Positions 1 to 10,274 of a stretch of 64,000 nucleotides of DNA are shown here, one piece after another. The first letter of the stretch is position 1, and each line of letters opens with the position of its first letter. The position numbers and the translations under genes were made by a program. The notes beneath the pieces are model-generated. The model did no database searches, was not told where the DNA came from, and saw only the letters and a program-made list of their open reading frames with translations. The stretch is from Hyphomonas neptunium ATCC 15444 (lineage in GTDB: Bacteria; Pseudomonadota; Alphaproteobacteria; Caulobacterales; Hyphomonadaceae): positions 1 through 64,000 of the forward strand of contig NC_008358.1 of the NCBI RefSeq assembly GCF_000013025.1, in the 5' to 3' direction.

Positions 1-224
1 TAACGCTTTATCCCGTCAAATCCACAGGCGACTCACAGATTGGCCCGCGGCGCTTTGACGTTTCAAACTCGAAATGAGTCAGTGGTTAACAGGGTGTAAA
101 CGTCCGTGTTGGAATCACAGAGGAGAACGCACGGTGACTCTCCAGAGGTGAGAATCCTGCAATTGTGAGTCGCCTGTGAATCCCTGTGTGTGATTTGGAA
201 TTCCACACAGGAGTCACACCCCTT
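1..224. other. Probable edge of the replication origin (oriC) with GANTC cluster
   Basis: Eight GANTC sites start at 30, 76, 112, 136, 152, 167, 178 and 211; chance would give about one in this length. Five lie inside GANTCACA: plus strand at 30, 112 and 211, minus strand at 164-171 and 175-182. A weak DnaA-box-like AAATCCACA is at 18-26, and an inverted repeat CCTGTGTG/CACACAGG spans 183-190 and 204-211. The gene order to the right is the one found beside the Caulobacter origin. Origin function is inferred from this context and the site density; the other half of any origin lies left of the window. Confidence 0.6.
86..101 (+). promoter_or_regulatory. Candidate CtrA box in the origin flank
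   Basis: TTAA at 86-89, seven bases, then TAAAC at 97-101. This differs by one base from the CtrA consensus TTAA-N7-TTAAC. In Caulobacter CtrA binds oriC to repress initiation. A single imperfect site is weak evidence on its own, but its place among the GANTC sites supports it. Confidence 0.4.
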
Positions 225-1100
225 GTGAAATCGGTTTCAGGGCGGCAAGAGAGCTGGGTGACCCAGCCTCAACGCCCCAGCATCTATTTCAATGTGCATC
301 TCGTGTCCGACAGTACGGGCGAGACCCTGAACGCCATTCAACGCGCCGCCTGCGCGCAGTTTGAGAATGTACAGCCGCTCGAGCACAATTATTACCTTGT
401 CCGCTCCGAACGCCAGCTCGAGCGCGTCATGAAGGAGATCGAGGCAGCGCCCGGCGTGGTCTGGTATACCATCTCCGATGGCGCGCTGCGCGGGCGTCTG
501 GAAGCATTTTGCCGTGAGCGGAGCATACCGACGCTGCCGGTTCTCGATCCCTCGATTGCCATGCTCAGCCGCCATCTGGGCGTCGCGCCCAATAACCGGG
601 TGGCCGGACAACACGCCCTCGATGAGGATTATTTCGAGCGGATGGAGGCGATTAACTTCACGCTCGCTCATGATGACGGCCAGAATGTGGAAAGCCTGAT
701 TGGCGCCGATGTCATTCTTCTGGGGGTCAGCCGCACATCGAAAACACCAACCTGCGTCTATCTGGCCAATCGCAAGGTGAGGGCAGGGAACATCCCGCTC
801 GTCCCTGGTGTTCCCCTGCCTGACTTCATGGAGAAGATGGGTGACAAGGGGCCTTTGGTGGTCGGCCTCAAGATTTCAGCCGAACGCCTCGTTCAGATCC
901 GCCGGCAGCGCCTCATCTCGCTCAATCAGGATGAGATCACCGAATACGCCGATGAAGAAGCGGTGCGCGATGAGATCACCCAGGCCAACCGCCTGTTCCA
1001 GCGCAATGGCTGGAAGACGATTGATGTGTCCCGCCGCTCCGTAGAAGAAACGGCCGCGGGCATTCTCAACATGCTGCATGAACGCTGGGGGCATTCTTGA
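225..1100 (+). CDS. ppsR: Pyruvate phosphate dikinase / PEP synthase regulatory protein (DUF299)
   Basis: Bifunctional serine/threonine kinase and Pi-dependent phosphorylase that switches pyruvate phosphate dikinase or PEP synthase off and on. About 291 residues from GTG 225. The family signature VSDSTGET lies at about residues 27-34, and the P-loop-like GVSRTSKT at about 167-174. The open frame reaches back to GTG 186. GTG 225, 11 bases after AGGAG at 209-213, is preferred; GTG 258 is also possible and would give 280 residues, nearer the family norm. First gene of a run whose members overlap by four bases. The family call is firm, the start is not. Confidence 0.9.
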   Translation: MKSVSGRQESWVTQPQRPSIYFNVHLVSDSTGETLNAIQRAACAQFENVQPLEHNYYLVRSERQLERVMKEIEAAPGVVWYTISDGALRGRLEAFCRERSIPTLPVLDPSIAMLSRHLGVAPNNRVAGQHALDEDYFERMEAINFTLAHDDGQNVESLIGADVILLGVSRTSKTPTCVYLANRKVRAGNIPLVPGVPLPDFMEKMGDKGPLVVGLKISAERLVQIRRQRLISLNQDEITEYADEEAVRDEITQANRLFQRNGWKTIDVSRRSVEETAAGILNMLHERWGHS

Positions 1101-9665: not shown

Positions 9666-10274
9666 TCAGAACGCGGCGTAGGTCCGCAGGAACGCGGTCG
9701 CCTGCTCGGCGCAGAAGCCTTCCTTGACTGGCGCACGCGAGATCGTCAGCCTGTGGAAGATCGGTCCCAGCAGCTGTTCGAGCACGTCATCGAGTTCGAA
9801 ATCGCGGCGGATCACACGTCGCGCTGCGAGTTCGGCCAGCAGCATGCGCAGGGGCTGGCGAATGTCGCGGCCGACCCAGGCGCGCCATACTTCACCGGCT
9901 TCCTTGTCATCGGCCGCCGCCAGCAGCGCCACGCGCAGCACGGCATGGCCATGCCCGGTACGGGCAGCCGCTTCGAGCGGAATGATCAGCGCTGTAATCC
10001 GCTCCTGCGGGTCGCGTCCGCCATCGGGAGCGTCCGGGATCAAGGCGAGCGCTGCGTCGACACACATCGCGCCGATTGACGGCCACCAGCGATAGATCGT
10101 CTGCTTGGAGGCGCTGGCGCGCTTGGCGACAGAATCCACACTGAAACCGCGCCAGCCATTCTCGGCCATCTCATCGCGGGCCGCTTCCAGGATTGCGGCC
10201 TTGGACACCTCGCTGCGCGTTGGCCCCTTACGGGAGCGCGAGGGCGGGCTCGGGGTTTCGGTCGGCGTTGTCAT
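9666..10274 (-). CDS. TetR/AcrR-family transcriptional regulator
   Basis: 202 residues from ATG 10274 (GGAG nine bases upstream); longer starts at 10289 and 10454 are open but reach into the carbonic anhydrase promoter region. The N-terminal HTH includes ILEAARDEMAENGWRGFSVDSVAKRASASKQTIYRWW (key SVAKRASASKQTIYRWW). The C-terminal TetR_C-like domain has no recognisable ligand signature. It is divergent from the carbonic anhydrase gene, whose 154-base shared upstream region could hold its operator. Confidence 0.88.
   Translation of the reverse strand: MTTPTETPSPPSRSRKGPTRSEVSKAAILEAARDEMAENGWRGFSVDSVAKRASASKQTIYRWWPSIGAMCVDAALALIPDAPDGGRDPQERITALIIPLEAAARTGHGHAVLRVALLAAADDKEAGEVWRAWVGRDIRQPLRMLLAELAARRVIRRDFELDDVLEQLLGPIFHRLTISRAPVKEGFCAEQATAFLRTYAAF

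Follow-up and report, generated by a model that had tools for sequence, protein, structure and literature searches.

CcrM methylation sites in conserved DnaA-type boxes at the likely chromosomal origin of Hyphomonas neptunium

Methylase sites are crowded at the Escherichia coli origin oriC, a Dam and SeqA system in which GATC lies in or over the low-affinity DnaA boxes R5M, tau2, I2 and I3 and boxes stand 2 bp apart (described in PMC8488378 and PMC5145175). At the origin of Vibrio cholerae chromosome II, a methylase site is found in every initiator repeat (the RctB 11- and 12-mers), and RctB is reported to bind fully methylated repeats best (PMC2865523). Among alphaproteobacteria, the Caulobacter crescentus origin Cori lies beside hemE and carries CtrA sites, weak DnaA boxes and several GANTC, as given in PMC4468827 and PMC3973325, while repABC replicons have GANTC-rich origins and firing of the Agrobacterium ori2 responds to the CcrM level (PMC6090056, PMC11514494). 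Here we analyse the first 64,000 nucleotides (positions 1–64,000, hereafter the window) of C1 (NC_008358.1), the sole contig of the 3,705,021-bp genome of Hyphomonas neptunium ATCC 15444, and describe its origin region, which begins the contig and lies between hemE and the gene for a pyruvate, phosphate dikinase/PEP synthase regulator (PPR). GANTC is the methylation site of CcrM. The region carries copies of the GANTC-containing octamer GANTCACA, hereafter methyl boxes, which are real, strongly conserved and placed at the origin. The best reading of each is a DnaA box and a CcrM site fused into one.

The Hyphomonas origin is like each of these systems in the features named, and unlike each in others. 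Unlike oriC, it has CcrM and GANTC, no SeqA match and one fixed register of the methylase site in four boxes. At Vibrio ori2, RctB and Dam act on a secondary chromosome, whereas here DnaA-type boxes and CcrM are found on the main one; in the repABC replicons, by contrast, the initiator is RepC, whose binding in vitro is reported to be methylation-independent (PMC6090056). The principle is already known from gammaproteobacteria, but we did not meet it in the present form, in which CcrM sites keep a fixed register and SeqA is not detected, in the literature that we searched; our searches of open-access papers brought up none on GANTC within Hyphomonas DnaA boxes.

A cluster of CcrM sites in paired boxes between hemE and PPR

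Eight GANTC fall within 186 bp (starts at 30, 76, 112, 136, 152, 167, 178 and 211), and five of them are contained in GANTCACA, three on the plus and two on the minus strand (Table 1). Elsewhere in the window GANTC occurs at 1.16/kb, which would give 0.22 sites per 190 bp (Poisson P 1.1e-10), and the first-order composition of the region itself yields 1.4, with eight reached in 0 of 20,000 simulations; other stretches of the same size in the window hold at most three each. Density and simulation therefore rule out chance or local composition as the source of the cluster. A first-pass annotation of this DNA had counted eight GANTC in about 190 bases where chance predicts fewer than one, five of them sharing GANTCACA in both orientations, and both statements hold. 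Across the window GANTC is depleted about 3.5-fold (82 against a mean of 284 in dinucleotide shuffles). The genome-wide count of GANTCACA that the annotation had called for proved uneven: the octamer occurs 38 times, versus 74 for the reversed pattern, with five of the 38 in the origin region and the closest other two 694 bp apart, which rules out an even spread.

Positions 1–257 most likely make up the bulk of the chromosomal origin. Based on curated families, hemE starts at C1:3704937 on the minus strand and PPR starts with GTG at 258, and the 341 bp between them are read as intergenic. An open reading frame starting at 186 is the PPR frame read from further upstream; since the conserved start aligns at 258, the boxes are intergenic and coding constraint on them was rejected. 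A marker-frequency maximum near hemE places the H. neptunium origin in the hemE–PPR region (PMC6650430, section 6), and the gene order that we found around hemE agrees with that account. These printed data put the origin here and not elsewhere, an outcome on which the annotation's reading depended; its term "origin flank" was right about the association with the origin but too weak, the sites lying within the intergenic region itself. As in a Caulobacter-type Cori, hemE adjoins the region and a predicted CtrA site lies inside it. A cluster of predicted DnaA-like boxes within the intergenic region, as expected of oriC, is present (YCACA pairs, and rows with TTATCCACA or CTATCCACA), as are methylase sites crowded over what appear to be weak DnaA-type boxes, in the manner of Dam/SeqA-controlled origins.

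One argument for DnaA-type boxes is spacing. Same-strand YCACA motifs exactly 11 bp apart occur in all 42 Hyphomonas regions analysed and in 39 of 59 regions from the rest of the family, with 0.2–0.3 expected, and become rare further out (0/14 regions of family f2, 2/16 of families f3–f5). In E. coli oriC, the low-affinity DnaA boxes are spaced in this way too, each 9-mer being followed by a gap of 2 bp (PMC8488378). The 42 regions together contain 173 copies of GANTCACA. A YCACA partner stands 11 bp away from 130 of these, and of the remaining 43, 41 are the box at 112. At two places, 164–171 and 211–218, GANTCACA alternates between species with DnaA-like boxes, and the partner at 199–207 is by its sequence a DnaA box, as its forms in other rows indicate (Table 1). 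The DnaA of this genome retains the RDHTTV recognition segment. DnaA binding to the boxes, and an effect of methylation on that binding, are what we propose. Every box in the own region differs from TTATNCACA at two or more positions, and an exact TTATNCACA is absent from the whole window, which may be why earlier origin predictions failed. Every own-region 9-mer ending in CACA is also at least two mismatches away from the Caulobacter G-box TGATCCACA.

Selection on the boxes across Hyphomonas

The genus sample comprised 42 Hyphomonas genomes, including H. polymorpha, H. oceanitis, H. jannaschiana, H. johnsonii, H. beringensis, H. pacifica and H. chukchiensis, and counts over 42 rows keep one region that ends at a contig edge (L013) and one with a divergent left half (L025). 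PPR is present in 42/42, and hemE lies beside it at 269–279 bp in 40; in L025 the distance is 686 bp, and L013 stops at the contig edge. Each region holds 3–5 copies of GANTCACA and 5–11 GANTC per 400 bp (255 bp for L013). The boxes at 30, 112, 175 and 211 form a complete set in 31 of 41 rows, and three of the four are kept in the other 10 (L013 excluded).

To compare columns, we counted changes on a tree of hemE plus PPR. In the four boxes, the 16 columns for G, A, T and C of the CcrM site underwent 9 changes and the 12 ACA columns 2, while the 4 N columns underwent 21 (N versus G/A/T/C rate, conditional binomial P 4e-9); intergenic columns had a mean of 3.65. The 28 specified columns together had 11 changes against an average of 102 in random column sets, and shifting the mask by 1–6 columns raised the total from 11 to 37–94. 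Because the G, A, T and C columns are nearly fixed while N varies freely, the boxes appear to be selected for GANTC: a fixed GA and TC around a free centre is the alignment signature of selection for a CcrM site. The partner boxes on the plus strand have T at position 4 of their 9-mers in all readable rows (columns 21 and 202, 0 changes), and this fixed T, set against the free N of the methyl boxes, argues that the latter are not merely G/T-favouring DnaA boxes.

A CcrM orthologue is encoded at C1:1968465–1969565; it matches the CcrM structure 6pbd of the Protein Data Bank (E 5.9e-160) and has a RAMA domain. CcrM was found in 41/42 congeners, the exception being an 85%-complete draft in 520 contigs. 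One congener also encodes a second CcrM-like methyltransferase (G020:C1:13609–14676, 52% identity). A search for SeqA (PF03925) gave no match in the own genome and detected the E. coli control. The first-pass annotation had proposed a single repeat combining a methylation site with a DnaA-like box, and this is supported by GANTC with a free N in 42 genomes, the 11-bp spacing, the alternation with DnaA-like boxes and the CcrM orthologue.

Table 1. Features of the H. neptunium origin region (positions in the window; row counts refer to the 42 aligned Hyphomonas regions)
Feature	Positions	Strand	Remarks
Origin region, window share	1–257	.	Part of 341-bp hemE–PPR intergenic region; remaining 84 bp at the end of contig C1 (circular)
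DnaA-type box AAATCCACA, partner of the 30–37 box, 2-bp gap	18–26	+	2 mismatches to TTATNCACA; AAATCCACA 21/42 rows, AATTCCACA 18/42, GAATCCACA 1/42
Methyl box 1, GANTCACA	30–37	+	38/42 rows, one row unreadable; 11-bp YCACA partner in 38/38 rows with GANTCACA; N column 5 changes
GANTC outside box (GAGTC)	76–80	.	
CtrA-type site, TTAA-N7-TAAA here (predicted)	86–100	+	Halves TTAA/TTAA 23/42, TTAA/TAAA 18/42, other 1/42
Methyl box 2, GANTCACA, no 11-bp partner	112–119	+	41/42 rows; YCACA partner in 0/41
GANTC outside box (GACTC here)	136–140	.	
GANTC outside box (GAATC here)	152–156	.	
Box of the pair 164–183, GACTCACA here	164–171	−	GANTCACA 16/42 rows, DnaA-like box elsewhere: YCACA- or ACACA-type in 26/42, 23/26 ending CCACA
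Methyl box 3, GANTCACA	175–182	−	42/42 rows; 11-bp partner in 41/42; 7 specified columns 0 changes, N column 6 changes with all four bases used
DnaA-type box AATTCCACA	199–207	+	Perfect TTATCCACA 2/42 rows, CTATCCACA 14/42
Methyl box 4, GANTCACA	211–218	+	36/42 rows; 11-bp partner in 35/36; ACTACACA, TGTACACA or TGCACACA instead in 6 rows
Further DnaA-like box GATTTCACA	224–232	−	CTTGTG at 222–227 invariant in 42 rows
PPR, pyruvate, phosphate dikinase/PEP synthase regulator (PF03618), right-hand origin neighbour	258–1100	+	Curated families; alignment start

The surroundings were also surveyed. Some 7 kb past hemE there are genes for a ParB-family and a ParA-like protein, and the dnaA gene is found at about 561 kb. 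CtrA binding adjacent to the H. neptunium origin is reported by ChIP (PMC7200025); we took the CtrA consensus from PMC4285127. A scan in 40-bp windows found the highest AT content of the region, 0.62, at 61–100 and no distinct AT-rich unwinding element. The last 84 bases of C1 (L002, about 9945–9980) contain a conserved block in the hemE leader, possibly a leader or unwinding element, which in most congeners includes an inverted repeat GCCCGTCAGGGC followed by CGCTTATNNTTAT. After the lone box at 112, GAAC stands at 125–128 (AAC invariant in 42 rows, G in 39), and GGAACA-like words occur at a similar place in other genera of the family. Elsewhere, the own genome (around C1:752044–752229; L137:1447–1791) encodes a 114-aa protein resembling the DnaA helix-turn-helix domain alone (PF08299), near a ROS/MUCR-family gene, which could compete for DnaA-type boxes.

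Occurrence beyond the genus

We searched for the pair YCACA-N3-GANTCACA in an order-wide draw of 398 genomes, 38 of them Hyphomonas (four of the 42 genus members were absent) and 360 others, and tallied the matches by eye. All 38 Hyphomonas genomes matched, with 88 matches, of which 83 lay at the origin as judged by eye against PPR positions, and the reversed control gave 1. The five off-origin Hyphomonas matches (G009, G011 twice, G013 and G029) had no hemE or PPR nearby. Outside Hyphomonas, 30/360 genomes matched (32 matches) versus 22 in the reversed control, and only three of the 32 matches lay at a hemE–PPR origin: G078, G177 and G277, one from genus g6 and two from g15, a genus of another family. 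The other 29 had neither hemE nor PPR in the fetched stretch, mostly 1.5 kb on each side, and three further g15 genomes in the draw had no pair match. In a class-wide draw, 22 of 208 non-Hyphomonas genomes matched (24 matches), none with hemE or PPR nearby, a gene order that may not be conserved at such a distance. The pair was therefore rejected as an origin motif of the order or the class, outside matches being close to the reversed control and mostly away from hemE–PPR.

Two side observations come from these draws. In L171 (at about 1974) and L172 (at about 1944), from a genus of another family, the hemE–PPR origin carries a DnaA box paired with GANTCACA; the device may have arisen there independently. 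In G241, a direct repeat 233 bp apart (L169, about 2089 and 2322) holds two GAGTCACA 11 bp apart; lying beside an apparent integrase end and a tRNA 3' end, it is probably an attachment site.

Outside the genus, 61 genomes of the family had a PPR match, and 59 of them served as outgroups (G101, at a contig edge, and G102, a fragment, were excluded; G042 and G097 had no PPR match). Beyond the family we read the origins of 30 among 304 non-family genomes (14 from f2, 16 from f3–f5). GANTCACA occurs in 9 of the 59 other family regions: with a partner in one g6 genome (two boxes, both partnered) and in 2/3 g9 genomes, and unpartnered in 4/12 g10 genomes, one g3 and one g5. Because so few family origins carry GANTCACA, an origin does not in general need methyl boxes to function. 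In g3 the forms at the partner place are weaker, and in some of them GANTC overlies a TCCCCA-like box. The g10 origins (L094–L105) hold 9–14 GANTC per 400 bp or less in 10/12 and tandem GAGTCGAGTC, mostly without CACA; this is, as far as predicted sites tell, a different way of crowding CcrM sites. It follows that crowding of GANTC at origins is wider than the fused box, which is fixed in Hyphomonas.

The annotation had suggested that Caulobacter's own origin is not organised around the octamer. Our outgroups agree: f2, which we infer to be Caulobacteraceae from TGATCCACA in L118 and L119, has one GANTCACA in 14 origins. Unlike the Hyphomonas boxes, the G-boxes and W-boxes of Cori are not fused to GANTC, and the 11-bp YCACA pair is likewise missing from all 14 f2 origins.

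Proposed mechanism and alternatives

We lean, with moderate confidence, towards an origin of DnaA-type box pairs whose weak boxes are fused to CcrM sites, so that methylation would gate DnaA loading once per cycle. The array consists of helically phased pairs of DnaA-type boxes, 9-mers with a 2-bp gap standing 11 bp start to start. The three pairs each contain a conserved, probably low-affinity GANTCACA, positions 2–6 of the box forming the CcrM site, and a fourth GANTCACA, at 112, stands alone beside the CtrA-type site. When the boxes are fully methylated, DnaA would fill the array and the origin would fire; replication would leave the boxes hemimethylated and the weak ones weakened or blocked; and a late CcrM pulse would re-methylate and reset them, so that each origin would fire once per cycle. 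CtrA would add cell-type control by blocking in the swarmer phase. The sign of the methylation effect is what we infer, and the CcrM timing would carry over from Caulobacter, where late timing is described in PMC2217572 and PMC6090056.

Several points weigh against this proposal. The methyl boxes are 2–3 mismatches from TTATNCACA, the GANTC at 76, 136 and 152 lie outside boxes, and most other family origins have 11-bp pairs without GANTCACA. The rows of the alignment come from one genus and partly from draft metagenome genomes and are not independent, for which the tree-based count allows only partly. From Caulobacter, it is reported that C. crescentus without CcrM in minimal medium has a DNA content like that of the wild type (PMC3973325), and a review calls CcrM dispensable for initiation there, with overexpression disturbing chromosome number (PMC6090056). 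The methylation-independent binding of RepC mentioned above points the same way.

More tentatively, Hyphomonas DnaA itself may read CcrM methylation, N6-methyladenine in the box setting DnaA occupancy; we regard this as possible but doubtful. The modified base would lie at box position 3 on one strand and opposite position 5 on the other. Since boxes occur in both orientations, the two sisters would bear different marks while their origins are hemimethylated.

Alternatively, the boxes may be DnaA boxes with a separate reader of their methylation. Such a protein would do the work of SeqA, sitting on hemimethylated GANTC and so keeping DnaA away, much as in E. coli SeqA bound to hemimethylated GATC makes low-affinity sites inaccessible to DnaA (PMC8488378). 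The GANTC crowded outside the boxes, and the ten of twelve g10 origins that are dense in GANTC but mostly lack CACA, are what a reader of density would want; yet the fixed-register fusion with a DnaA box exceeds the needs of such a reader, and with neither a SeqA match nor any candidate reader found in the genome we consider a separate protein unlikely.

That the cluster serves methylation-dependent promoters of hemE or PPR, through GcrA and sigma-70, instead of initiation seems improbable to us. GcrA works at methylated GANTC promoters (PMC3667746) and the region sits between two divergent genes, but the GANTC are spread over about 190 bp at a fixed spacing to YCACA, CACA would be superfluous in a promoter, and the main text of PMC7200025 places CtrA at the origin but mentions GcrA only for the ctrA promoter. 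Least credible is that these are ordinary DnaA boxes whose Hyphomonas preference merely happens to be GANTCACA, with methylation irrelevant: all end in CACA like DnaA boxes, and G at position 2 is found in the Caulobacter G-box and T at position 5 in the H. pylori box TCATTCACA (PMC4285127, Table 1), but the sole free position is the N of GANTC, where partner boxes hold T, and the depletion of GANTC in the window makes five boxed copies unlikely to be neutral.

On the role of CcrM in alphaproteobacterial initiation, models assume that Cori is fully methylated before refiring (PMC2217572), yet Caulobacter lacking CcrM is near normal in DNA content in minimal medium (PMC3973325). At the Hyphomonas origin, a DnaA-type box and a methylation site appear as one object under selection in 42 genomes, which makes the CcrM question reducible to a binding assay and a four-site mutant, and the finding supplies cis-anatomy for the H. 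neptunium origin. If DnaA reads the methylation, this would be a main-chromosome methylation lock read by the initiator and free of SeqA, like RctB at Vibrio ori2, and the differing marks on the sisters could make them unequal in a budding bacterium. The conserved fused boxes suggest that in Hyphomonas methylation has a part in timing chromosome replication.
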